From a virus: DNA of 43,223 nucleotides. The notes under the pieces are model-generated. The model ran no database searches. It was not told the DNA's origin and worked only from the letters and a program-made list of their open reading frames with translations. The stretch lies in IMG/VR virus record IMGVR_UViG_3300020202_000125, positions 1 through 43,223 of that record. One strand, written 5' to 3'. Each line of letters opens with the position of its first letter. The first letter of the stretch is position 1. The translations under genes and the position numbers were made by a program. This document shows positions 1 to 43,223 of this stretch, piece by piece.

Positions 1-60
1 GGGTCGGGGTCGGGGTCGTGGTCGCGGTCGGGGTCGGGGTCGGGGTCGCGGTCCACATGA
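1..60 (+). repeat. Tandem hexanucleotide repeat, left-end part
   Basis: Perfectly phased NGGTCG units in which only the first base changes (G, T or C). The frame starting at base 1 reads Ser alternating with Gly, Trp or Arg and stops at the TGA at 58-60, which overlaps the ATG at 57 of the next gene. The same array closes the window at 43147-43223. The window therefore starts inside the array, and the true repeat number is unknown. The G-rich strand has many GGGG runs two bases apart and could form G-quadruplexes. Confidence 0.95.
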
Positions 61-425
61 CCCCCGCCGAACGCGACGAGCTGCGGAGGCTGGCTAAAGC
101 GGCGACGCCGGGGCCGTGGCATGCGTTTCAGAATGGTCTTGGCATGGGCGGCTCCACGCCTGTTGATTGCGAGACCGGCGTAGAAGTCACATTTCACGCA
201 CCAAATCTCCAGCCGATCGACTATGCAAATCTAGCGTACTGCGCAGCCGCCAACCCATCCACCATCCTCGCCCTCCTCGACGCGCTCGATCGCGCTGAGG
301 CGGTGGTGGCGGTGGCTAGAGTGGCATTCAACGCATACACGGACGGCCTATCGGTCGCCTACAGCCTCGACGCTTTGGGTGACGCCTTAGAGGCCCACGA
401 CGCACCCGCGAAGGAGACGACGTGA
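57..425 (+). CDS. Ea22-like (ead-type) phage protein, 122 aa
   Basis: The N-terminus MTPAERDELRRLAKAATPGP and the central ANLAYCAAANPSTILALLDA are typical of the Ea22/ead family, small accessory proteins in early regions of many phages; their biochemical role is not established. The frame is open further upstream only because the G-rich repeat encodes a Val-Gly run. The ATG at 57 is preferred because it overlaps the TGA (58-60) of the repeat-encoded frame and begins the family motif. It is followed by an SD-led GTG start for the next gene. The first 18 bases are identical to those at 42773-42790 on the other side of the repeat. Confidence 0.8.
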   Translation: MTPAERDELRRLAKAATPGPWHAFQNGLGMGGSTPVDCETGVEVTFHAPNLQPIDYANLAYCAAANPSTILALLDALDRAEAVVAVARVAFNAYTDGLSVAYSLDALGDALEAHDAPAKETT

Positions 426-4826: not shown

Positions 4827-4855
4827 TTGCGCATCATCACCAGTCGTGCTAATAA
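4827..4855 (+). promoter_or_regulatory. Early promoter 1 with shared operator motif
   Basis: TTGCGC (4827-4832), 17-base spacer, TAATAA (4850-4855) preceded by TGC (extended -10). The motif ATCATCACCA (4833-4842) directly follows the -35. The same arrangement recurs at 40777-40805 and, in a variant, at 37519. Predicted start near 4862, followed by GGAGGG and the GTG start at 4879. Drives the recombination/replication operon. Confidence 0.75.
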
Positions 4856-4878
4856 TAGGGTCACTCGGAGGGCGCCCA

Positions 4879-5790
4879 GTGTTCACCAAGGCAACCAAAA
4901 CCCAAGCCAAGCTGCGACTCGCCATCAAAGGCCCGTCCGGCAGCGGCAAGACCTTTTCGGCCCTGTCGATCGCCCAGCACCTGGGCAGTCGCATCGCGGT
5001 CATCGATACTGAGTACGGCAGTGCTTCCAAGTACGCTGGCCGCTTCAACTTCGACGTGTGCGAAATCCGCGACTCGTTCGAGGCCACGAAGCTGGTGGAC
5101 GCGATGGCCGCAGCGGCCGGCTATGACGTGGTGATCATCGATTCGCTGACCCACTTCTGGAACGGTACCGGCGGCATCCTCGAGCGGGTGACCGCCGAGT
5201 CCCTGCGCTTCAAGGGCAATTCGCACGCGGCCTGGGGTGTGGTGACGCCAATATATAAGTCGATCGTCCACGCCATCCTGAACGCCCCCAGCCACGTCAT
5301 TGTCTGCCTGCGCGCCAAGCAGGAGTACGTGCAGGAGAAGGACGAGCGCGGCAAGACGGTGATCAAGAAAGTCGGCATGGGCGCCGAGATCCGTGATGGC
5401 TTCGAGTACGAGATGGACAACGAAGGCATCCTCGACATGGAGCACAATTTCGTGGTGGGCAAGAACCGCTGCGAGGCCATCGACGGGAAGGTCTTCCACA
5501 GGCCCGGCAAGGAACTGGCCGAGATCCTCAAGGGATGGCTGTCGGAGGGCGCACCAGCGCCAGTCACAGCACCGGTCGCACAGCCAGCGGGCGCGCCCCC
5601 TGCGGCTGCTTCCGTCATCGCGGGAGCCGGCCCCGCGGCAACGCCGCCAGCCGATGCCCACCGCGCCGAGGCCCGCGCGCTGTACGCCAAGCTGCCGCGC
5701 GCCGAAGCGGAGGCTATCCGGCTGAAGCATGGCCAGGACTTCGCCGCGATGTGTGTCGATTACAGGGCGTGGCTGGAAGGGGTCGCGTGA
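4879..5790 (+). CDS. Sak4-like RecA-fold recombination ATPase, 303 aa
   Basis: Start is GTG 4879, six bases after GGAGGG; the in-frame ATG at 4846 lies inside the promoter. Walker A GPSGSGKT at residues 18-25 and Walker B DVVIIDS at 83-89, followed by LTHFW. The architecture is that of the Sak4 family (phage ATPases related to the RecA core that promote strand annealing/exchange with SSB). The C-terminal third has an Ala/Pro-rich linker (about 228-265) and a short helical end. It leads the operon that also holds an exonuclease and SSB, which fits a phage recombination set. Confidence 0.85.
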   Translation: MFTKATKTQAKLRLAIKGPSGSGKTFSALSIAQHLGSRIAVIDTEYGSASKYAGRFNFDVCEIRDSFEATKLVDAMAAAAGYDVVIIDSLTHFWNGTGGILERVTAESLRFKGNSHAAWGVVTPIYKSIVHAILNAPSHVIVCLRAKQEYVQEKDERGKTVIKKVGMGAEIRDGFEYEMDNEGILDMEHNFVVGKNRCEAIDGKVFHRPGKELAEILKGWLSEGAPAPVTAPVAQPAGAPPAAASVIAGAGPAATPPADAHRAEARALYAKLPRAEAEAIRLKHGQDFAAMCVDYRAWLEGVA

Positions 5791-5823
5791 CATGGGCTAC
5801 ATGGTTGAGCGGAGGGGCGACAC

Positions 5824-6195
5824 ATGACCATCGACTTCACCAAGCCCGTGCAAACGCGCGATGGACGGAAGGTGCGGATACTGTGCACGGATCGCCAAGG
5901 TGAAAAACCAGTTGTCGGCCTGGCTGCAGAGCGCGACGGCAGCGATTCCATTTTCGCATGGTCCGCAGACGGCAGGCACTTACATGGTTGTCCCAACCTT
6001 GACCTCGTCCAAGCGCCCGAGACGTGGGAAGTGACGGGGTGGGTGAATGTATATCAGGATGGCGAAGGGTCTCCGTCTTTCGGCTCCATATGGAACACGC
6101 GCCAGGACGCCGACGGCAGCTCATCTATCGACGGGGTACGCATCGCCTGTGTCCCGGTGACCCTACGCGGGGTGGTGGGTGAGGGGCTGGAATGA
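5824..6195 (+). CDS. Hypothetical protein, 123 aa
   Basis: ATG preceded by GGAGGGG. Begins MTIDFTKPVQTRDGRKVRIL, an opening common in small phage proteins of unknown function with a beta-rich fold. Ends RGVVGEGLE, encoded by a G-rich tract that also serves as ribosome site for the next gene (4-base overlap). Confidence 0.75.
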   Translation: MTIDFTKPVQTRDGRKVRILCTDRQGEKPVVGLAAERDGSDSIFAWSADGRHLHGCPNLDLVQAPETWEVTGWVNVYQDGEGSPSFGSIWNTRQDADGSSSIDGVRIACVPVTLRGVVGEGLE

Positions 6196-6500
6196 ACTGG
6201 ATTCCCTGCGCTGGGCGTCTGCCTGACATGCCTCATACCAGCGATGCCGGTCCAATAACGACGGCGCGTCGCTACAGCGATCCGGTAGTCATCATCGGGA
6301 AAAACGAAGATGATGGACAGTGGGCCTTGGTCGCGCGCTGCGGCATAAAGGACGAACCAGATTGGGGCAAGGCGCCGGAAGATACACCGTTTTGGTGCGA
6401 CGAGTTCGATCTGATCGCAATCCACGGCGAGAAAGATGCGCCCACGCATTGGATGCCGTTGCCGATTAACGACGTGACGGTGGAGGAGCAAAACTCATGA
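6192..6500 (+). CDS. DUF551-like protein, 102 aa
   Basis: Begins MNWIPCAGRLPDMP and ends with THWMPLPI, the start and end signature of the DUF551 family (W-P at the start, HWMPLP near the end), common in phage and prophage early regions; biochemical role unknown. ATGA overlaps on both sides place it in the recombination operon. Confidence 0.8.
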   Translation: MNWIPCAGRLPDMPHTSDAGPITTARRYSDPVVIIGKNEDDGQWALVARCGIKDEPDWGKAPEDTPFWCDEFDLIAIHGEKDAPTHWMPLPINDVTVEEQNS

Positions 6501-7297
6501 CCATCACCCTCGGCACGCCCGTAGGTCCGTTCGGAAAACTCCATGAGGACGAGGCCACCTACCGGTCGAACCCAGCCATCACGCGCTCAATCCTGGAGGA
6601 CTACCTGCGCAATCCTCGGCTCTGCCAGGGAATGCACATCACCGGCGAGTACCAGAAGCCCGACAGCGATTCCTTCCGCGTCGGCACCGCCGCGCATTGC
6701 CTCGTGTTGGAGCCGGACGAGTTCACGGCGCGCTACATCGTGCCGCCAAAGATGGACCGGCGCACGAAAGAGGGCAAAGAGGCATTCTCTGCATTCGGAC
6801 GCGAGCACGCCGGGAAAAAATTTCTCGACCAGGAGGAATTCGACCTGGTCCACCGCATGGCCGAGGCGGTTTCGCAGAATGCCTGCGCCCAGGACCTGCT
6901 GTGGGGCGCTGAGGTCGAGGTGGTCTACCGCCACAATGGCACCCCCCTCGCCACGCAATGCCGAGTTGATGCGGTCACACCTACGCACGTGGTCGACCTC
7001 AAGACCACGGAGTCACTGGCCAAGTTCAAGCGCTCGCTGTGGGATCTCGGCTATCACCGCCAAGCGGCGTGGTACCTCGAGCATGTCGATCCGCAGCTGC
7101 CGTTCATCTTCATCGCCGTTGAGAAGTCCGCCCCCTACGCCGTCGGCATCTTCCAGATTGAGTCGCGCGGACTCTCCATGGCACGCGATCAACTCAGCGA
7201 CGCCCTCGCTCGTCTTGCAGACAGCATCGCCACCAACCGCTGGGAACGTGATGCCGGGGTCATCGAAACCGTGAATGCTCCGCCATGGCTACCGTAG
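6497..7297 (+). CDS. PD-(D/E)XK exonuclease (RecE/ExoVIII-like), 266 aa
   Basis: Contains FRVGTAAH at 60-67, CRVDAV at 155-160, VVDLKTT at 165-171 and YHRQAAWY at 186-193. These are the ordered motifs of the putative ExoVIII/RecE-type nuclease family; the Asp of RVDA and the D-x-K of DLKT are the likely metal-binding core. It would resect double-stranded ends to leave 3' single strands for the Sak4-like protein and SSB encoded nearby. Overlaps the next gene by 13 bases. Confidence 0.85.
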   Translation: MTITLGTPVGPFGKLHEDEATYRSNPAITRSILEDYLRNPRLCQGMHITGEYQKPDSDSFRVGTAAHCLVLEPDEFTARYIVPPKMDRRTKEGKEAFSAFGREHAGKKFLDQEEFDLVHRMAEAVSQNACAQDLLWGAEVEVVYRHNGTPLATQCRVDAVTPTHVVDLKTTESLAKFKRSLWDLGYHRQAAWYLEHVDPQLPFIFIAVEKSAPYAVGIFQIESRGLSMARDQLSDALARLADSIATNRWERDAGVIETVNAPPWLP

Positions 7298-7530
7298 TCC
7301 CCACCACCATCCACACCGCGCACGGGTATAGCCTGTACTCGGACAGTGGTAAACCACGCGTGCGACGCGAGTGGATGCAGCGCGTCAACGGCATCCCAAC
7401 CAAGCACCACACCGAATTCGACCTCGTCCGTGACCACTTCGGTTCCGGCGCGAAGGCGCAGGATGCCTGGGACCAGCTGAGCCGGGCTTGGGACGAGTGG
7501 CGGACCTGGATCGAGGCGAACACGCGATGA
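7285..7530 (+). CDS. Hypothetical protein, 81 aa
   Basis: ATG lies within the end of the exonuclease gene. Basic N-terminal half and a tryptophan-rich C-terminal helix (DAWDQLSRAWDEWRTWIE). No known motif. Located between the exonuclease and the helicase, so a replication/recombination accessory role is possible but unsupported. Confidence 0.6.
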   Translation: MATVVPTTIHTAHGYSLYSDSGKPRVRREWMQRVNGIPTKHHTEFDLVRDHFGSGAKAQDAWDQLSRAWDEWRTWIEANTR

Positions 7531-7552
7531 CCGGCACCGCCTGCGACCTGAC

Positions 7553-9070
7553 GTGAGCGATCACACCCACAACCTGGAGATCGAAGCCAGCGTCCTGGCC
7601 ACGGTCGTCCACGCCCAGGACCCCAAGAAGGCCTGGGCCATAGTGGGCGAACACCTCCAGACCCCCCTCGCGTTCTACGGCCGCGACCACCAGTTGCTGG
7701 CCCTGGTGATCGGTGCCCAGTGGGCCGCCGGCGCAGACATCGACGCCACCTCGCTCCTCGCCGCCCTCAGCCAGGTATCGTTCGCCGACGCCATGCGTCA
7801 GCTCTCGAATGTTAACAATGGTGCTACTGTTACACTCGACCCTTTCCGCTCCCCCGACGACCCCCTCTCCCTGGTCATCGGACTGACCTCGGACATCCTC
7901 GTCGGCGTCACCCCCAGAGCGAGTTCGCCGGAAGCCCTGGGCCGACAGGCCAAGATCGTCGCGGACCACTACCGCCAGCGGCAGGTGATCGCCCTGCTGA
8001 CCAAGGCACTGGAGGGTCTCAACGCAGCCTCCGCCCGCACCAAGCTCGGCGAGATCGCCGACGGTATCTTTAACGGGCTCGCTAAGGTGGTTTCCGGGCG
8101 TTCTGGGGCACGATCCCTGCACGAGCACGGCTATGACGCCATCAAGGCGCACGACCGCGCCAGCGAGGCGGGAAACCGCCCCCTGCCGGTATGGCCACTG
8201 CCCACCCTCAATGACCTCTGCCCGTTCCGGGGCGGGGCCATGGTGGTGCTGGCCGGTTCACCGGGCTCGGGCAAGACCTCCCTGGCGCTCCAGGTCGCCA
8301 CCGAATCCGCCAAAGTCCTGGGCGGTCCCTGCGGTGTGGGGATCGTCTCCCGCGAGATGCCGGGCCTGGACCTGGCCCGCCTGGTGGTCTCCCGTCACCT
8401 GGGAGTACCGCGCAGCGACATCGAGAGGGGCCTGCTGCTGGGGTGGCAACGCGCCGAAGCCCTGGCCTACCTCGACCGGATCGGCCACGGCCAAGGCGTC
8501 GTCATCTACGACAACCTCGGGCCCTGCACCTCGCGCGACATCTGCGCCTGGGCCAGACAGCAGGTCCTCAGGACGGGCGGATCGTTCCGCCTGCTGGTGA
8601 TCGACCACCTCCAGCTCCTCGACGGCGCCTCGCCCAAGGCCTCCGAGTACGAGCGCATCAGCCAGGCCACCCGCGAACTGAAATGCGTGGCGCTCGAGCT
8701 GGACATCACCGTCCTGCTGCTGAGCCAGCTGAATCGCGCGGCCAAGAACACTGGTCAAGCGGCCAAGGGTTTTGGTCGTGCCGGCATGGAAGCCGGGCTC
8801 GGCGCCGACGACTTCGAGCTGAAGGACCTGCGCGGTAGCGGCACCATCGAGGCTGACGCCGACCAAGTCGTCTTCCTGTGCAACCTGCAGCCTGGCGCCG
8901 CGCAACCCAACGTCCGCATCAAGGTCGCCAAAAACCGCTGGGGAGCCCTTGGCTGTGTCGAATGCGTATTCGACAAGCCCAACGGTCAGGTTTACCGGGA
9001 AAAAATTTCACCACCGGGGTCCAACCGCATGGCCAGCGAGCCGTCGGAGGCCGAGGACCTCTTTACCTAG
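7553..9070 (+). CDS. DnaB-like replicative helicase, 505 aa
   Basis: GTG start at 7553. The N-terminal about 180 residues are helical, as in DnaB N-domains. Then Walker A GSPGSGKT (235-242), Walker B LLVIDHLQLLDG (347-358), LSQLNR, RGSGTIEADADQVVFL (the DnaB sensor/arginine-finger region) and AKNRWGALG. This is the full DnaB/RecA-like helicase order, at normal family length. It would unwind the fork using host polymerase, since no phage polymerase is seen. Followed after 9 bases by SSB. Confidence 0.9.
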   Translation: MSDHTHNLEIEASVLATVVHAQDPKKAWAIVGEHLQTPLAFYGRDHQLLALVIGAQWAAGADIDATSLLAALSQVSFADAMRQLSNVNNGATVTLDPFRSPDDPLSLVIGLTSDILVGVTPRASSPEALGRQAKIVADHYRQRQVIALLTKALEGLNAASARTKLGEIADGIFNGLAKVVSGRSGARSLHEHGYDAIKAHDRASEAGNRPLPVWPLPTLNDLCPFRGGAMVVLAGSPGSGKTSLALQVATESAKVLGGPCGVGIVSREMPGLDLARLVVSRHLGVPRSDIERGLLLGWQRAEALAYLDRIGHGQGVVIYDNLGPCTSRDICAWARQQVLRTGGSFRLLVIDHLQLLDGASPKASEYERISQATRELKCVALELDITVLLLSQLNRAAKNTGQAAKGFGRAGMEAGLGADDFELKDLRGSGTIEADADQVVFLCNLQPGAAQPNVRIKVAKNRWGALGCVECVFDKPNGQVYREKISPPGSNRMASEPSEAEDLFT

Positions 9071-9079
9071 GAGCATTGC

Positions 9080-9487
9080 ATGAACGTGAATCGCACCCTC
9101 TTGGCGGGGAACCTCACCCGCGACGTTGAATCGCGCGCCGTCGGCGACAAGACCGTCGCCAACTTCGGACTGGCCATCAATCACCGCTACAAGGGCAAGG
9201 ACGGAGAGGTCAAAGAGGAAGCCACCTTTGTCGACATCGAAGCCTGGGGCCGCACGGGCGAGCTCTGCGCCCAGTATCTCACCAAGGGCAGCGGCTGCTT
9301 CATCGAGGGGCGTCTGAAGCTCGACCAGTGGACTGACAAGGATGGCCAGAAGCGCTCGAAGCTGAAGGTCGTCGCCGACAGCGTCCAGTTCATGGGCCGC
9401 AAGGACGAGGCGCCCAAGGCCGCTACTGCGGCCGCATCGTCACAGCCCGTCCAGCAACCTGTCGCCGACGACGGCATCCCGTTCTAA
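9080..9487 (+). CDS. Single-stranded DNA-binding protein, 135 aa
   Basis: MNVNRTLLAGNLTRDVESRA, AWGRTGELCAQYLTKG and IEGRLKLDQW are the SSB OB-fold signature. An Ala/Gln-rich linker leads to the acidic tip DDGIPF, which in SSBs recruits partner proteins. SD AGGAG nine bases before the ATG. It completes the exonuclease/Sak4/SSB recombination set and supports the helicase. Confidence 0.95.
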   Translation: MNVNRTLLAGNLTRDVESRAVGDKTVANFGLAINHRYKGKDGEVKEEATFVDIEAWGRTGELCAQYLTKGSGCFIEGRLKLDQWTDKDGQKRSKLKVVADSVQFMGRKDEAPKAATAAASSQPVQQPVADDGIPF

Positions 9488-9490
9488 GCC

Positions 9491-9682
9491 ATGCCACTTC
9501 GCAACGACACCATGCAGCGGGTCTACGAGGTGGCGGATCGCCGCCGCCTCATGGCCCTGCACCGCCAGTACGGAACGGACATCATTAACCATCAGCGCTG
9601 GGCCCACCAAGCCCGTGCCAAACAACAGGCCGTCGAGCTCGAGTTGGACGAGCAACACCCTGGGTGGAGGGAGAAGTCGTGA
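9491..9682 (+). CDS. Small hypothetical protein, 63 aa
   Basis: ATG three bases after the ssb stop. Basic, helical (YEVADRRRLMALHRQYG), ending in a Gln/Glu-rich helix. No motif recognised. Overlaps the next gene (GTGA). Confidence 0.65.
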   Translation: MPLRNDTMQRVYEVADRRRLMALHRQYGTDIINHQRWAHQARAKQQAVELELDEQHPGWREKS

Positions 9683-9840
9683 ACAACGACGATGTGACCC
9701 TGGCGATCTTCTGCGCCATGGTCCCCTATTGGGAGAGGGCCGGACTCCACAATCGCAGGTGGCAGGTCGAGCAGTCCATCCAAATTGCAGCCGAATACCT
9801 GAAGATCCGCGAGGATCTTCGGTACAAGGCCAAGCCATGA
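9679..9840 (+). CDS. Small hypothetical protein, 53 aa
   Basis: GTG start overlapping the previous stop, with AGGGAG upstream. MNNDDVTLAIFCAMVPYWER followed by a helical end; no family recognised. Overlaps the next small gene by ATGA. Confidence 0.6.
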   Translation: MNNDDVTLAIFCAMVPYWERAGLHNRRWQVEQSIQIAAEYLKIREDLRYKAKP

Positions 9841-9941
9841 CCGCCACGCCAGACCCCGACATGCTCTGGGCCTACATCGCGCTCGCGGTCATCACCGTTT
9901 TGACCATGGTCGGGATGGTGGTGGGACGGTTCGGCCCATGA
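9837..9941 (+). CDS. Single-pass membrane miniprotein, 34 aa
   Basis: ATGA overlap at both ends. MTATPDPDMLWAYIALAVIT continues as one hydrophobic segment to about residue 28, with a short GRFGP tail. A predicted inner-membrane miniprotein; function unknown. Confidence 0.55.
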   Translation: MTATPDPDMLWAYIALAVITVLTMVGMVVGRFGP

Positions 9942-10129
9942 ACGACCAACCCACCGTCGCCGATCTCTGCCGACAGATCCATGACCTCAACCTCGCGCTG
10001 GCGGAATCGCAGGGTGCGCTCGCCCTGGCCGATGCCGAGGTCAAGCGCCTGAACCAGGAGGTCCTCCGGCTACAGAACGCCGCCGCCGTGCTCAGCCAGT
10101 ACTTCTACGACGTGAGGATCGAGCCATGA
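9938..10129 (+). CDS. Small coiled-coil protein, 63 aa
   Basis: MNDQPTVADLCRQIHDLNLA then heptad-like leucines (ALADAEVKRLNQEVLRLQNA) predict a coiled coil. Coupled by ATGA on both sides. Function unknown. Confidence 0.65.
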   Translation: MNDQPTVADLCRQIHDLNLALAESQGALALADAEVKRLNQEVLRLQNAAAVLSQYFYDVRIEP

Positions 10130-10347
10130 GGAAGCCAACGGCTACCAGGCTAGCCATGACACTAAAGGAATTCGTGACGTACATGGAGCTGAAGCAGCGC
10201 AATGACGAGTTTCATAACAGTAGCAGGCAACGCTCCCGGTACGGCATCCCGGATGATCCCGGATATCCCGACTATATTGAGCGCTCGGTTGAAGCCCAGC
10301 GCGCATTCGATGACTTCGTTGCCGAAGCGAAGGCGCGCGACCAATGA
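10126..10347 (+). CDS. Small hypothetical protein, 73 aa
   Basis: ATGA-coupled. MRKPTATRLAMTLKEFVTYM, then a polar middle and a helical end; no family recognised. An internal ATG at 10156 is possible but lacks a better SD. Confidence 0.6.
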   Translation: MRKPTATRLAMTLKEFVTYMELKQRNDEFHNSSRQRSRYGIPDDPGYPDYIERSVEAQRAFDDFVAEAKARDQ

Positions 10348-10520
10348 ACGACCCCATCCACCGCCTCATCAACCTGGCCAATCAGCTCGGATCGATCGGC
10401 ATGCTCGTCGGCGCCACCAAGGCGCTCCATGACCCGCGCTACACCAACCTCCTCCTGCAGTACGTGCGCGTCAAAGACGAGCTCGCGGCGATTGCGGCGG
10501 AGTTCGAGAGGGCGCCATGA
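10344..10520 (+). CDS. Small helical protein, 58 aa
   Basis: ATGA overlaps with both neighbours. MNDPIHRLINLANQLGSIGM followed by two short helices. No motif recognised; the overlaps support translation. Confidence 0.6.
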   Translation: MNDPIHRLINLANQLGSIGMLVGATKALHDPRYTNLLLQYVRVKDELAAIAAEFERAP

Positions 10521-11122
10521 GCATCCGCACCGCCATCCGTGATCACGGCAACATCATCGTCGGCATCACCGGCCGCCGCGGGTCTGGCAAGTCCACCTTC
10601 GCCGCCTCCATCGGGGGCTGGCGTATGGGCTTCGCCGATCCCATCCGCGCCGTCACCGAAGCCGTGTTCGGCTCCCAGTACCGCACCGCCGAGGAGAAGG
10701 CTGCCACCGATGCATACTGGCAGGAGCGCCTCGGCGACGACTGGTCAACCGGCCGCAAGATCCTCCAGCGCACCGGCACCGAGGTGTTCCGCGCCGGCGT
10801 CCACAAGGACATCTGGCTGTACGTCATGGAACGCCGCCTGCTCGAGCTGTGCAACCGACCGCCCATGCTGATCACGATCGACGACGTCCGCTTCGACAAC
10901 GAGGCCGAGTTCCTGCGCGACCTCGGCGGCACCATCGTGCGCGTGGTCAACACCAACCAGCCGCCGAACGACGACGACCACACCAGCGAAGCCGGAATCA
11001 GCGACGACCTGGTCAACGCCGAGTTCCGTTGCGCCACCAAAGGCGAATGCCAGTCGATCGCCAAGGCGTTCCTGTTCCTGCTGGAGAAGGCCAAGCCACT
11101 TCCGGCCGCGACTGCACCTTGA
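10517..11122 (+). CDS. Deoxynucleoside monophosphate kinase, 201 aa
   Basis: Walker A GITGRRGSGKST at residues 16-27; then IDDVRFDNEAEFLRDLGG and VNTNQPPNDDDHTSEAG, the pattern of T4 gp1-type dNMP kinases. These phosphorylate dNMPs to dNDPs for phage DNA synthesis, often from degraded host DNA. Length is typical for phage versions. The stop overlaps the -35 of a promoter for the next gene. Confidence 0.85.
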   Translation: MSIRTAIRDHGNIIVGITGRRGSGKSTFAASIGGWRMGFADPIRAVTEAVFGSQYRTAEEKAATDAYWQERLGDDWSTGRKILQRTGTEVFRAGVHKDIWLYVMERRLLELCNRPPMLITIDDVRFDNEAEFLRDLGGTIVRVVNTNQPPNDDDHTSEAGISDDLVNAEFRCATKGECQSIAKAFLFLLEKAKPLPAATAP

Positions 11123-11146
11123 CATCATTAGCAAACGTGGTACAGA
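11119..11146 (+). promoter_or_regulatory. Internal promoter for the RusA gene
   Basis: TTGACA (11119-11124), 16-base spacer ending TGG, TACAGA (11141-11146). This is the TTGACA-N13-TGN-TANNNN pattern seen elsewhere in the genome. The predicted start falls at 11152-11153, on the ATG of the next gene, which has no SD; this predicts a leaderless transcript. Confidence 0.6.
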
Positions 11147-11151
11147 TACCC

Positions 11152-11550
11152 ATGCACGAAGCCGTTGACCTTTTCGTCGCGATGAAGCCCGCTGCCAAGG
11201 CCCGCCCGCGGGTGACCAGGCGCGGGGTCTACATGCCGAAGGCGTACCAGGTCTGGAGAAAGACGTTCCAGGAACTGGCCAGGCCACAGTACCAGGGCGA
11301 GCCGTTCACGTGCCCGGTGTACCTCGCGGTCATCTTCTCCACCAAGACCGGAACGATGCGGCCGGACATCGACAATGCTGCCGGGGCCGTGCTCGATGCG
11401 CTGCAACCCTGGTTCATCAAGAATGATAGCCAGGTCCGCGAGCTGATCGCGGGCGTTGTCATCGACGGCAAGTTTCCGGGGCTCTGCCGTCCGTCCGGAA
11501 TCGCCGTGCTCCTGCAGACGGCATCGGTCCTTGAAGAACTGGCGCACTAA
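11152..11550 (+). CDS. RusA-like Holliday junction resolvase, 132 aa
   Basis: KARPRVTRRG near residues 16-25, PKAYQVWR, then MRPDIDNAAGAVLDALQ. Asp72, Asp74 and Asp92 (in KNDSQV) match the three-aspartate active site of RusA, which cuts four-way junctions symmetrically. Length fits the family. It would resolve recombination or replication intermediates before packaging. Start chosen at ATG 11152; an in-frame GTG at 11137 lies inside the promoter. Neither has an SD. Confidence 0.85.
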   Translation: MHEAVDLFVAMKPAAKARPRVTRRGVYMPKAYQVWRKTFQELARPQYQGEPFTCPVYLAVIFSTKTGTMRPDIDNAAGAVLDALQPWFIKNDSQVRELIAGVVIDGKFPGLCRPSGIAVLLQTASVLEELAH

Positions 11551-11825
11551 TGAACACCACAGCCATTGACGAAGTCCTGTATGACGATGCGTACGTGCCG
11601 CTCCTGGAGATCGTAGAGCGACTGTGCGATCGCATCGGCGGTAACCCACTCGTCGGTGCACCGCAATGGAACTCATCCGTCTACCACGAGTGGTGCCGGT
11701 TCGCTGAACGCGTGTGGATCGAGGGCTACAATCCGTCGGCGGTGTTCGTGGCACTGCGCGATGGTGGTTACCCCAAGCGGACGATCAACGGCATCGAGTG
11801 CTGGAGCAGGAGGACTGGCCGATGA
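11550..11825 (+). CDS. Hypothetical protein, 91 aa
   Basis: ATG overlaps the last base of the RusA stop. MNTTAIDEVLYDDAYVPLLE then ERLCDRIGGN and a C-terminal RDGGYPKRTINGIECWSR. Helical; no family recognised. ATGA overlap with the phosphoesterase gene. Confidence 0.65.
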   Translation: MNTTAIDEVLYDDAYVPLLEIVERLCDRIGGNPLVGAPQWNSSVYHEWCRFAERVWIEGYNPSAVFVALRDGGYPKRTINGIECWSRRTGR

Positions 11826-12517
11826 GCACGGTGCTCGCCATACCCGATCTCCACATGCCATTCCAGCACCGTGATGCGTTCGAGTTCCTGGCGCAGGTCA
11901 AGCGCAAGTACAGGCCGGACATCATCATCAACCTGGGTGACGAAGTCGATCATCACGCGCTGTCGGATCACGACCACGACGTGGATGGCCATTCCGCCGG
12001 CGACGAGTTCCAGATGGCGCTCGAGGAGATGAGCCATCTGTACGCGATGTTCCCGTCATGCGGAGTCGCGGTGAGCAATCACGGTCTTCGCCCATTCCGC
12101 AGAGCATACCGCTACGGGCTACCAAAAGCGTTCCTGCGGGATTATCACGAGTTCATGCAGGCCCCACCAGGGTGGCGGTGGGAGGACTCATTCACCGTTG
12201 ACGGGGTCGTCTACGAGCACGGCATGGGCATGTCCGGCCCTGGCGGAGCGCTCAAGGCTGCGCTGGCCAATATGGCGAGCACGGTCATCGGGCACCTGCA
12301 CAGCTGGGCCGGGATCGCATTCTCTGCGAACCAGAAGTGTCTGGTGTGGGGCATGAACGCTGGGTGCCTGCTGGATCGTGATCGCTATGCCTTCGCGTAC
12401 GGTCGCATCCACAAGTCGAAGCCGATCCTGGGCTGTGGCATCATCCGCGATGCGGTGCCGACGTATATACCGATGATACTCAACAGGTCCGGCAGGTGGA
12501 CCGGTGGGGGTTTGTGA
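11822..12517 (+). CDS. Calcineurin-like metallophosphoesterase, 231 aa
   Basis: IPDLHMP (D9, H11), NLGDEVDHH (GDEVD 39-43), SNHG (85-88, in place of the usual GNHD/E) and GHLHS (157-161) give the ordered metal ligands of the metallophosphoesterase superfamily. The substrate cannot be read from sequence; phage members act on nucleotides or DNA ends. The Asn-His of the third motif is kept. Starts by ATGA overlap. Confidence 0.8.
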   Translation: MSTVLAIPDLHMPFQHRDAFEFLAQVKRKYRPDIIINLGDEVDHHALSDHDHDVDGHSAGDEFQMALEEMSHLYAMFPSCGVAVSNHGLRPFRRAYRYGLPKAFLRDYHEFMQAPPGWRWEDSFTVDGVVYEHGMGMSGPGGALKAALANMASTVIGHLHSWAGIAFSANQKCLVWGMNAGCLLDRDRYAFAYGRIHKSKPILGCGIIRDAVPTYIPMILNRSGRWTGGGL

Positions 12518-23238: not shown

Positions 23239-23510
23239 GCTGCGCTCGCCTTCCTGGCTACCCCGAGGAACGCCAGCACGCGGTGATCGTTTTCGGCCTC
23301 GGCGCGCCGAATGGCCTCACGCTCGACGTTCACGCGCACATGCGGCGGCAGATACGCAGCCAGCAGCACCAGATCGCGAGGAGGCATCGCATTGATGTGA
23401 GGCTCGACGCCCCACTTGACCATGCGGTGCGCCACGCATTCCATGCAGTAGCACAGCAGCGCCAGACGCACGGGGTGCAGGTCATCGAATAGGAGCCTGG
23501 CGTCACGCAC
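23235..23510 (-). CDS. Hypothetical protein, 91 aa
   Basis: GTG start overlapping the stop of the upstream gene by 8 bases. MRDARLLFDDLHPVRLALLC then CMECVAHRMVKWGVEPH; helical, with several Cys and His. No family recognised; sits between the DUF115-like gene and the adaptor. Confidence 0.6.
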   Translation of the reverse strand: MRDARLLFDDLHPVRLALLCYCMECVAHRMVKWGVEPHINAMPPRDLVLLAAYLPPHVRVNVEREAIRRAEAENDHRVLAFLGVARKASAA

Positions 23511-24903
23511 CGGCGATCTCCTCGAAGATGCCGGCGCATTCCGTCACCACATTGCGCAGCGCCGTCGACGTCCAGTCGACCACATGATCGGTCGGGAATC
23601 CGAATCGCCGCTCGAACGACATCTGCGCGTACACAGACCGGAACAGGTAGTTGAAGAACGGGGCATTCTCCCCCGGGCAGAGCGTGGCCATGCTCACGTC
23701 CGACGGCTTGTGGGCCGTATCGAGCTTCTTCAGCATGCGCCGCGCGTCCTTGGCCAGGCGCGCCTTGCGGGCCATGAATGGCGCGCGCCGATCCGCGGCA
23801 TCTGGCAGTGTGACCTGACCCAGACTCGACAATTCCACCGGCGACGGCAGCGGTGCGTTCTCGGTGTGGTCGATCTTCGCCCCGGTCGTCAGGTTGGTGT
23901 TGAACACGTTGCCGCGACCGCGCAGCGACATGCCGATCTCGCGGTGCAGCCGTTGCCAGAAGGGAATGGTCGCCACCGGATCGCCGCCATTGCCCGGCAG
24001 CGAAAAGCCGGCGATCGGAATCTCCGGAATGGCGGTGGCCCCCTGCCAGTGCGTCTGGCCGGAAGCATGCGCCAAGTCGTGACCGACGAGATACACCGGA
24101 CCATCGGTCATCCGGCAGGCGCGATAGATCGACATCGTGCCGCTGGACGGGCCGTGCGAATAACGCTTCGTTCCGGGTGATACCCAGTCGTAGACGACGT
24201 CGTGGCCGGGCGAGAAGACGTGTCGCTTAAAGCGACGCACCGCCTCCGGATGCACCAGCGGACAGCCGAGGAAGATCGTCTCGCCGGTGTCTTCCGGCAG
24301 GCAGTCGACGATCTCCGGCACCCGCTCGACCGGCGTGCAGAAGTGCGGCCTGATGCCCTCCTCGAGGAGGCCAGACAACGCCGTGTCTGCGCACACCAGG
24401 ATGCAGGTATCCTGCAGGCTGCGCAGCTTGGCCAGGTGCTCGCGCACGCTGGGACCGCTGCCAATGGCGATGACCGGCGCCTTGCCGAAATGGATGTCGC
24501 CCGTTTCCGGAGCGCGCAGCAGTAGATCGGCGTTCGCCGCCAGGTGCACCGCACCCTGGAGGTTGTCGAGCACATCATTGCCGAACTGGTGAAGCAGGGT
24601 CGGGAAGACGTGCAGTATCTCGCTGCGCAACTCGGGGTGCGTATCCACCTCGAAGAAGTCGGCAGACGCCAGATCGAAAACGCTGGTATAGTCGGGGAAG
24701 GCTTCGTCCACGAAGATGGCTGCGTCGCCCGGGGTGTGCACCGGCCAGCAGGCCGCACCCTTGAGCGGGTCCTGCCCGGCGAAGGTCGCCGCGACCACGC
24801 GCTTGTAGCCGGCCAAATCCTCGAGCGTCAGCGATCCATCGTTGCCCAGGACAACGGCGAGCTCACGCGGTGAGGAGGTGGCGGTACGCGAGGTCTGGGT
24901 CAT
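23503..24903 (-). CDS. DUF115 / MptE-like (MAF-type) protein, 466 aa
   Basis: Residues about 145-195 read APVIAIGSGPSVREHLAKLR followed by DTCILVCADTALSGLLEEGI and RPHFCTPVE, the signature of the DUF115 domain shared by archaeal MptE and by MAF proteins that attach nonulosonic sugars to flagellin. The N-terminal domain is longer than in MptE. SD GGAGG before the ATG. It is flanked by capsid and tail genes, so virion modification is possible; the substrate is unknown. Confidence 0.7.
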   Translation of the reverse strand: MTQTSRTATSSPRELAVVLGNDGSLTLEDLAGYKRVVAATFAGQDPLKGAACWPVHTPGDAAIFVDEAFPDYTSVFDLASADFFEVDTHPELRSEILHVFPTLLHQFGNDVLDNLQGAVHLAANADLLLRAPETGDIHFGKAPVIAIGSGPSVREHLAKLRSLQDTCILVCADTALSGLLEEGIRPHFCTPVERVPEIVDCLPEDTGETIFLGCPLVHPEAVRRFKRHVFSPGHDVVYDWVSPGTKRYSHGPSSGTMSIYRACRMTDGPVYLVGHDLAHASGQTHWQGATAIPEIPIAGFSLPGNGGDPVATIPFWQRLHREIGMSLRGRGNVFNTNLTTGAKIDHTENAPLPSPVELSSLGQVTLPDAADRRAPFMARKARLAKDARRMLKKLDTAHKPSDVSMATLCPGENAPFFNYLFRSVYAQMSFERRFGFPTDHVVDWTSTALRNVVTECAGIFEEIAGA

Positions 24904-42823: not shown

Positions 42824-43114
42824 ATGGCCAAGAGCAAGAAAGCAACACCGACCGGCTTTGTGGTCGGGAAGTCGTACTTCATCCGAACCGTCACGCACCA
42901 CTACACCGGCAAGCTCATTGCGCGCGACGGTGATTTTCTGGTCCTCAGCAGCGCGGCTTGGATCGCAGATAACGGCCGCTTTTCGGAGGCGATGGCCAAA
43001 GGCTTATTCGGCGAAGTCGAGCCGTACCCGGACAGTGTCCTTGTGCGCGTGAACCTTGGCGCAGTGTGCGACGTAGCTGACTGGAATCACCCGCTACCGC
43101 GCGAGGTGCGGTGA
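42824..43114 (+). CDS. Hypothetical protein, 96 aa
   Basis: ATG 42824 follows AAAAGGAGG with seven bases spacing, far better than the in-frame ATG at 42773. MAKSKKATPTGFVVGKSYFI then beta-rich sequence with LIARDGDFLVLSSAAWIADN. Similar small beta proteins occur in phages, role unknown. Its TGA overlaps the ATG of the repeat-encoded frame. Confidence 0.7.
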   Translation: MAKSKKATPTGFVVGKSYFIRTVTHHYTGKLIARDGDFLVLSSAAWIADNGRFSEAMAKGLFGEVEPYPDSVLVRVNLGAVCDVADWNHPLPREVR

Positions 43115-43223
43115 TGATCGCCGCTGTAATGCGGACAGGCTACGACTGGTCGTGGTCGGGGTCGTGGTCGGGGTCGGGGTCGCGGTCGCGGTCGGGGTCG
43201 TGGTCGGGGTCGGGGTCGGGGTC
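43114..43223 (+). CDS. Repeat-encoded Ser-(Gly/Trp/Arg) protein, partial
   Basis: ATG at 43114 overlaps the preceding TGA. MIAAVMRTGYD is followed by Ser alternating with Trp, Gly or Arg up to the window edge. With one G added at the junction, the frame continues at base 1 and ends Arg-Ser-Thr at the TGA of 58-60, giving roughly 57 residues. Low-complexity and basic; may bind nucleic acid or be merely tolerated. No SD beyond coupling. Confidence 0.55.
   Translation, partial: MIAAVMRTGYDWSWSGSWSGSGSRSRSGSWSGSGSG
43147..43223 (+). repeat. Tandem hexanucleotide repeat, right-end part
   Basis: About 13 in-phase units NGGTCG with N being T, G or C, running to the last base. Together with 1-54 it forms one array of at least 21 units if the ends are adjacent. 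The junction is one base short of phase, so copy number and exact joint are not resolved here. Confidence 0.95.

Follow-up and report, generated by a model that had tools for sequence, protein, structure and literature searches.

What is the hexamer repeat into which both ends of this phage sequence run? The window, i.e. the whole stretch of DNA analysed here, is the IMG/VR virus record IMGVR_UViG_3300020202_000125 (43,223 bases, listed as linear). Tandem Repeats Finder reports a period of 6 at each of its ends, counting 12.7 copies over 43148-43223, for a score of 117, and 8.8 copies over 1-53, for a score of 85, and a second hexamer array of comparable size was not found in the window. The final 77 bases (43147-43223, + strand, 12 full units followed by GGGTC) and the initial 54 bases (1-54) are the two parts of one NGGTCG array. 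Read in the serine frame, the array opens with TGGTCG at 43147; the letters at N are T T G T G G C C G T G G (G) at the right end and G G G T C G G G C at the left end, and A is found at neither. The array and its missing A, both reported in an initial annotation of this DNA, are thus real, and the statement that all units read NGGTCG with only N varying holds for every unit but the last (49-54), CGGTCC, which is the sole one to vary beyond its first base. The last 17 bases of the window (43207-43223, + strand) are identical to positions 1-17. Overlaps of 5, 11 and 17 bases all fit and each keeps the serine frame, so that the base which the initial annotation wished to restore at the junction is unnecessary, the 17-base joint being one of several. 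Since the contig begins and finishes within a single array, with strand and phase unchanged, the genome is presumably circular or circularly permuted, and its assembly broke inside the array. The contigs of other relatives likewise end inside theirs, as expected for the assembly break already suspected at this site.

In the serine frame the array belongs to an open reading frame split between the two ends of the window. Its 5' part (43114..43223, +) reads MIAAVMRTGYD-WSWSGSWSGSGSRSRSGSWSGSGSG from the start codon at 43114, the leader MIAAVMRTGYD being conserved in relatives. Its 3' part (1..60, +) consists of 8 NGGTCG units, CGGTCC, ACA and TGA, and thus terminates as ...CGG TCC ACA TGA. Joined through the 17-base overlap, the ORF encodes 50 aa, a minimum length because short-read assembly may have collapsed copies of the array. 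The two ATGA overlaps read earlier at 43114 and 58 are present, TGA 43112-43114 meeting ATG 43114-43116 on the upstream side and TGA 58-60 meeting ATG 57-59 of the next gene on the downstream side. The upstream gene (42824..43114, +) encodes a 96-aa protein with a predicted Sm/LSm fold, assigned through IMG/VR relatives, AF2 models and Foldseek/VIA comparisons, and is the partner of the repeat ORF. The next gene of the operon (57..425, +) is Ead/Ea22-like (PF13935, E 1e-7). No Ead/Ea22-like relatives were found by relative search, in five records or beside the arrays of the loci examined, and this gene is therefore placed outside the conserved pair. The phage collection contained no close relative of the window at the DNA level, and no reverse transcriptase of a diversity-generating retroelement turned up when 20 of the window's ORFs were compared with PHROGs. 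Elsewhere in the window, an early block (4846-12517, +) encodes phrog_1366/Sak4-like, exonuclease VIII, DnaB-like helicase, dNMP kinase and metallophosphoesterase proteins, and an MptE-like domain (PF01973, E 3e-22; 23503-24903, -) is found in a protein encoded amid the virion proteins, not far from the major head protein.

Relatives of the Sm-fold gene were collected from IMG/VR (47, five of them found first, plus a further 21), from the record MW202573 and from six MAG contigs bearing a further Sm family that has diverged from the first (family 2). These amount to 75 loci, or 66 once identical entries are removed. In 61 of the 66, an ORF of the same design, with a leader and then serine at every second place (for example MNAAILREGFDR followed by alternate serines), adjoins the Sm-fold gene. 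This conservation of leader, frame and serine bears out the earlier proposal of a translated gene in an operon; the Sm-fold partner, the wide distribution of the pair and the switching of serine codons described below had escaped the initial annotation. Two contigs stop 35-40 bases past the Sm-fold gene with the leader already visible (L037, L042), one ends where the S-x run begins (L067), one holds a decayed copy of the repeat ORF (L072), and in L070 an unrelated ORF occupies its site. The latter, a 172-aa ORF from position 2501 onward which by its motif we take to resemble an HNH/homing endonuclease, is perhaps an insertion. The L044 clade seemed at first to lack the repeat ORF, which sits there 121 bases further on.

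The start of the repeat ORF overlaps the upstream stop at an offset of -4 (ATGA or GTGA) in 34 of the 61 loci. Since this is the commonest offset, a -1 frameshift fusing the Sm-fold ORF into the repeat was considered. It was rejected as a general mechanism because the other offsets place the repeat in each of the remaining frames, and it is also disfavored by repeat ORFs lying more than 100 bases away from the Sm gene or before it.

The linkage was examined from the array side as well, by a scan of IMG/VR for runs of seven GGTCGN units, made without regard to what stands beside them, which gave at least 120 stretches. Linkage was judged with profiles of both Sm families, and arrays cut within 450 bases of their start were excluded. 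A Sm-fold gene lies no more than 700 bases upstream on the same strand in 75 of the 91 uncut GGTCGN arrays. Among the matches listed, it is found only downstream in 8 of 120 stretches and on both sides in 3; gene order is therefore not essential. Such an upstream gene is missing from 16 of 91 GGTCGN arrays, from 88 of 103 GGAGCN arrays among the matches listed and from 57 of 64 GGTCCN arrays, rates that are not strictly comparable since the TCG scan required seven units and the others six, the TCG and AGC scans each yielding at least 120 stretches. The sets of 120, 94, 120 and 68 stretches are moreover partly dependent, some stretches being parts of one contig. Taken with the conservation among relatives, the coding nature of the repeat ORF and its pairing with the Sm-fold gene can be regarded as close to certain.

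Bacterial genomes gave no family 1 relative in 65 pattern stretches, and seven family 2 loci from 55 stretches, of which six are real and one (L203) is spurious; the repeat ORF is present in all six real loci, which are the MAG contigs mentioned above. Four of these contigs (L197, L198, L200, L201) are binned as Elusimicrobia, Patescibacteria and Amesbacteria. These names may reflect mis-binned phage DNA, and no host is therefore assigned. Plasmids yielded no relatives. The search of cultured phages returned no isolate, its matches being limited to MW202573 and MW202825, both environmental records from Manatee Spring, together with one further weak, unannotated match (E 0.2, 28% identity). MW202573.1, the only named family 1 record found, carries the Sm-fold gene and then MNAAIIRAGLDA-(S-x)n, annotated as 'hypothetical protein' (UOF78858.1). 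In MW202825.1 (L204), an unannotated family 2 Sm-fold gene is located at 5449-5649.

The upstream proteins divide between family 1, with 43 rows, and family 2, with 18, which are homologous (hhalign probability 96, E 2e-9). Their single-chain AF2 models, with pLDDT of 93.6 and 88.8 respectively, predict five strands, preceded in family 2 by a short helix. In Foldseek comparisons with the PDB, Sm/LSm chains rank first (1i8f, E 8.1e-4, for family 1; 1m8v, E 8.6e-4, for family 2), and every row listed belongs either to an Sm/LSm-type chain or to an Sm-fold subunit in an entry for snRNP, NatC, LSM14/Tral or Edc3. The top VIA rows are likewise Sm proteins, with Z 9.2 (1.8 A, 64 aligned) for family 1 and Z 10.6 (2.2 A, 68 aligned) for family 2. 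At the sequence level, the Pfam LSM/Hfq models gave no match among 38 family 1 members at E up to 1, a search that can miss distant members; no family of Pfam, PHROG or NCBIfam covers either the Sm-fold protein or the repeat protein, one PHROG run returning only weak rows (E 0.0025-0.06), and no solved Sm protein matches the upstream protein in sequence. The Sm assignment therefore stands on the predicted folds, which indicate an Sm/LSm-type protein that is probably RNA-binding. Established by computation are the gene pairing, the predicted Sm fold, the repeat ORF with its reading frame, and the S/T-[W/R/G] pattern kept in its amino acids.

The repeat ORF itself contains only the leader, of about 7-16 residues in most cases, and the repeat. 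The 57 complete ORFs have median values of 71 aa, a net charge of +10, 7 Trp and 1 acidic residue, a composition from which the chain is very likely disordered. Its length varies, as had been anticipated, in whole codon pairs. Ten pairs of contigs were compared: in three, arrays lying behind Sm-fold genes identical over their last 240 bases differ in length while all staying in frame, with 82/42, 44/72 and 77/at least 55 aa, differences to which repeat assembly could add; five pairs are equal in length and two are more diverged. L003, L051 and L041 carry the whole repeat ORF twice or three times in tandem, every copy having a leader of its own. Long block duplications within one array, in which the region around WSRAGSQSWSWSRSGSRSWSGS occurs twice, show multi-unit copying in L018 and L132.

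With the Sm-like protein as its fixed neighbor, the likeliest role of the repeat chain concerns RNA. The repeat protein could be a disordered, cationic-aromatic RNA partner of the phage Sm-like protein, in other words its 'detached tail', a reading to which an even chance is given. The array is the body of a small phage protein, in which a leader precedes serine (rarely threonine) alternating strictly with Trp, Arg or Gly, and which is usually translated by stop-start coupling behind the Sm/LSm-fold gene. The Sm-like protein may form an RNA-binding ring. The repeat chain, carrying 7 Trp and about 10 positive charges, would make additional weak, multivalent contacts with RNA or condense it during the early phase of infection, Ser and Gly maintaining solubility. 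The ring, RNA binding, contact between the two proteins and condensation are what this reading would add to the gene pair. If the alphabet and the alternation alone matter, array length and W/R/G order would be free to drift by gain and loss of units.

The same composition could also be that of a membrane-active or nucleic-acid-condensing peptide acting on the host, the pair being merely a transcription unit. Richness in Trp and Arg is shared with cationic peptides, and a 2023 paper ties antimicrobial peptides to nucleic acid phase transitions (PMC10630377). Such a role is nevertheless rather unlikely, because the pairing persists whichever gene comes first, spans two or more Sm families that have diverged, and has leaders that follow the family. 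A basic K-Q-K-Y-R-like leader accompanies 0 of 110 family 1 and 21 of 39 family 2 proteins, leader classes being defined here by loose patterns of our own making. Leader type thus appears to track the Sm family, a pattern that joint inheritance alone would also give.

Each of the 61 loci is represented by whichever reading holds most S-x-S inside 420 bases; the row of L010 is a second tandem copy and those of L024, L041 and L060 are longer readings, and their leaders were excluded. Related arrays are not independent, and the statistics on arrays given here are descriptive. The dominant serine codon, almost fixed inside one array and different between phages, is TCG in 37 arrays, AGC in 8, TCT in 8, TCA in 7 and AGT in 1. 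TCN and AGY codons cannot be interchanged by a single base change. The sixth serine codon, TCC, was predicted and then found behind Sm-fold genes in 7 of 64 arrays. A scan for the threonine pattern was meant as a control, and 79 of 82 uncut Thr arrays lack a Sm-fold gene. It was dropped as a pure negative control since the 3 linked arrays are genuine (Thr-x)n ORFs and hence a variant; (Thr-[Trp/Arg/Gly])n was found in L220, L260, L266 and L455, behind a third, diverged Sm-like subfamily. The serine codons and threonine share only a residue with a hydroxyl, and the common feature of the units is therefore not a DNA word. On a tree of 62 upstream proteins, at least 8 TCN/AGY changes, 20 serine-codon changes and 17 arginine-codon changes were counted; with 7 of 56 inner branches well supported and shuffled means close to the observed values, the tree is taken to say that codon switches were many rather than to give their number.

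A hydroxyl as the sole residue feature kept at every second position, with Thr able to stand for Ser, would also suit a substrate of phosphorylation or glycosylation, serving as a decoy or as a phosphorylated RS-like chain. The genes downstream of the pair, however, are mixed across loci, and no kinase or glycosyltransferase was noted as a constant neighbor, which makes this possibility a fairly improbable one.

At the alternate positions, Trp, Arg and Gly are all present in 57 of the 61 arrays, whose pooled x residues comprise 543 R, 501 G, 439 W and 2 D, and the shares of the three do not track GC. Among the 52 arrays having at least four NGG arginine codons, 44 use AGG or CGG alone, and the Arg share of NGG codons is 0.37 where AGG is used and 0.35 where CGG is used. 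Ten or more NGG codons are present in 56 arrays, of which 47 show exactly three letters at N, the absent letter being A in 26, C in 20 and G in 1; four letters occur in 7 and two in 2, although 52.8 four-letter arrays would be expected if the pooled composition applied throughout, and 44.3 if A/C were fitted to GC. The comparison of units among relatives suggested by the initial annotation, for selection on codon position 1, thus gave a positive answer. The same annotation had seen that A is missing from the window array and left the cause unremarked: each array uses one arginine codon. The usage of letters at N therefore points to selection on amino acids. Within the unit, the mean modal base share over 58 arrays is 0.47 at position 1 and 0.94-1.00 at the other five. 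Synonymous sites are homogenised and the amino-acid-changing position 1 remains mixed, and unit copying combined with selection for a W/R/G mix explains both.

A reading in which the array is a DNA or RNA element, with GG every six bases serving as a quadruplex or binding site and the open frame being incidental, draws on several of these same features: NGGTCG is free of stops in every frame, GG at hexamer positions 2-3 is nearly invariant (mean modal fraction 0.94-0.96), and G as the third base of Gly and Arg codons far exceeds codon bias, Gly in the arrays being written as GGG 475 times and otherwise 26 times, with GGG making up 16% of Gly in the window genes counted. As GG is kept at positions 2-3 of the x codon far beyond codon bias, some DNA-level effect must act too, either unit copying or a GG-based structure. 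The third-position G fits unit copying in which TGG stays one step from AGG/CGG and GGG. As an explanation of the whole array, an element of this kind is very unlikely. The other three bases of the unit switch between TCG, AGC, TCT, TCA, AGT, TCC and Thr codons with only the hydroxyl shared, the letter missing at N is exactly the synonymous Arg alternative, a leader with a start codon stands in the serine frame, and the remaining two frames hold stops in 6 and 12 of the 61 arrays. Coding in the neighboring frame (GGT CGN, i.e. Gly-Arg, with N as a silent wobble) can practically be dismissed, even if TCG arrays give an Arg-Gly repeat there with N fourfold degenerate and the tails of Sm proteins are RG-rich, because other phages give Gly-Ala, Gly-Val, Gly-His/Gln or Gly-Leu with nothing conserved, because four bases would be expected at N when only 7 of 56 arrays have four, and because the leader sits in the serine frame.

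A wider reading of the pair is possible and is offered tentatively. This would be a widespread and so far unrecognised two-gene system, in which an Sm-like ring and a separate low-complexity chain conserving its grammar rather than its sequence assemble into an RNA condensate or an RNA-chaperone particle at an early stage of infection. Unit turnover would rewrite the DNA of the array, through six Ser codons, Thr and either Arg codon, with the chemistry held.

Known systems offer partial parallels. The fold of the phage upstream protein is, by prediction, like that of archaeal SmAP and eukaryotic Sm/LSm proteins, of which Hfq is the bacterial relative; unlike them, the phage protein has no sequence-family match. 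SmB, D1, D3 and LSm4 carry Arg-rich disordered tails, and Hfq has a disordered tail; the repeat chain would resemble these tails in its role. In the phage pair, by contrast, the low-complexity chain is a separate gene, in which Ser/Thr alternates with Trp/Arg/Gly in place of RG/RGG. Among the closest viral predicted structures (BFVD) are DUF6948 and other unnamed small phage proteins, the best DUF6948 row having E 1.8e-4, with only 14-19% identity to the Sm-fold protein. The staphylococcal Clf/Sdr proteins, which are large and wall-anchored at the surface, contain a Ser-Asp dipeptide repeat encoded by a tandem DNA repeat. Their models give a weak, composition-driven match to the phage repeat (E 4e-4, far below the cut-off), and their x residue is Asp, whereas D occurs only twice in the phage arrays. 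RS domains, known from SR splicing factors, are disordered low-complexity stretches of alternating Ser and Arg; in the phage repeat, Arg makes up about a third of x beside Trp and Gly, and an RRM is absent. An Sm-like protein thought to come from a cyanophage has reportedly had its structure determined, a report not found in the open-access literature searched. The same literature holds no description of the repeat protein or of the gene pair. While the Sm fold is old, the S/T-[W/R/G] chain and its occurrence beside an Sm-fold gene are, to our knowledge, new.

The array offers a clean natural experiment, in which a low-complexity protein keeps its alphabet and alternation as codons, length and order vary. 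It also brings to light a large group of phage Sm-fold proteins unrecognised by sequence libraries, each with a potential Arg/Trp-rich RNA-binding partner. If the pair binds RNA, it would provide a small phage system for the study of RNP condensates and riboregulation. The array is likely to be the cause of many phage contigs breaking at this site, and what was supposed to be an assembly nuisance turns out to be the gene for a small protein in many uncultured phages.
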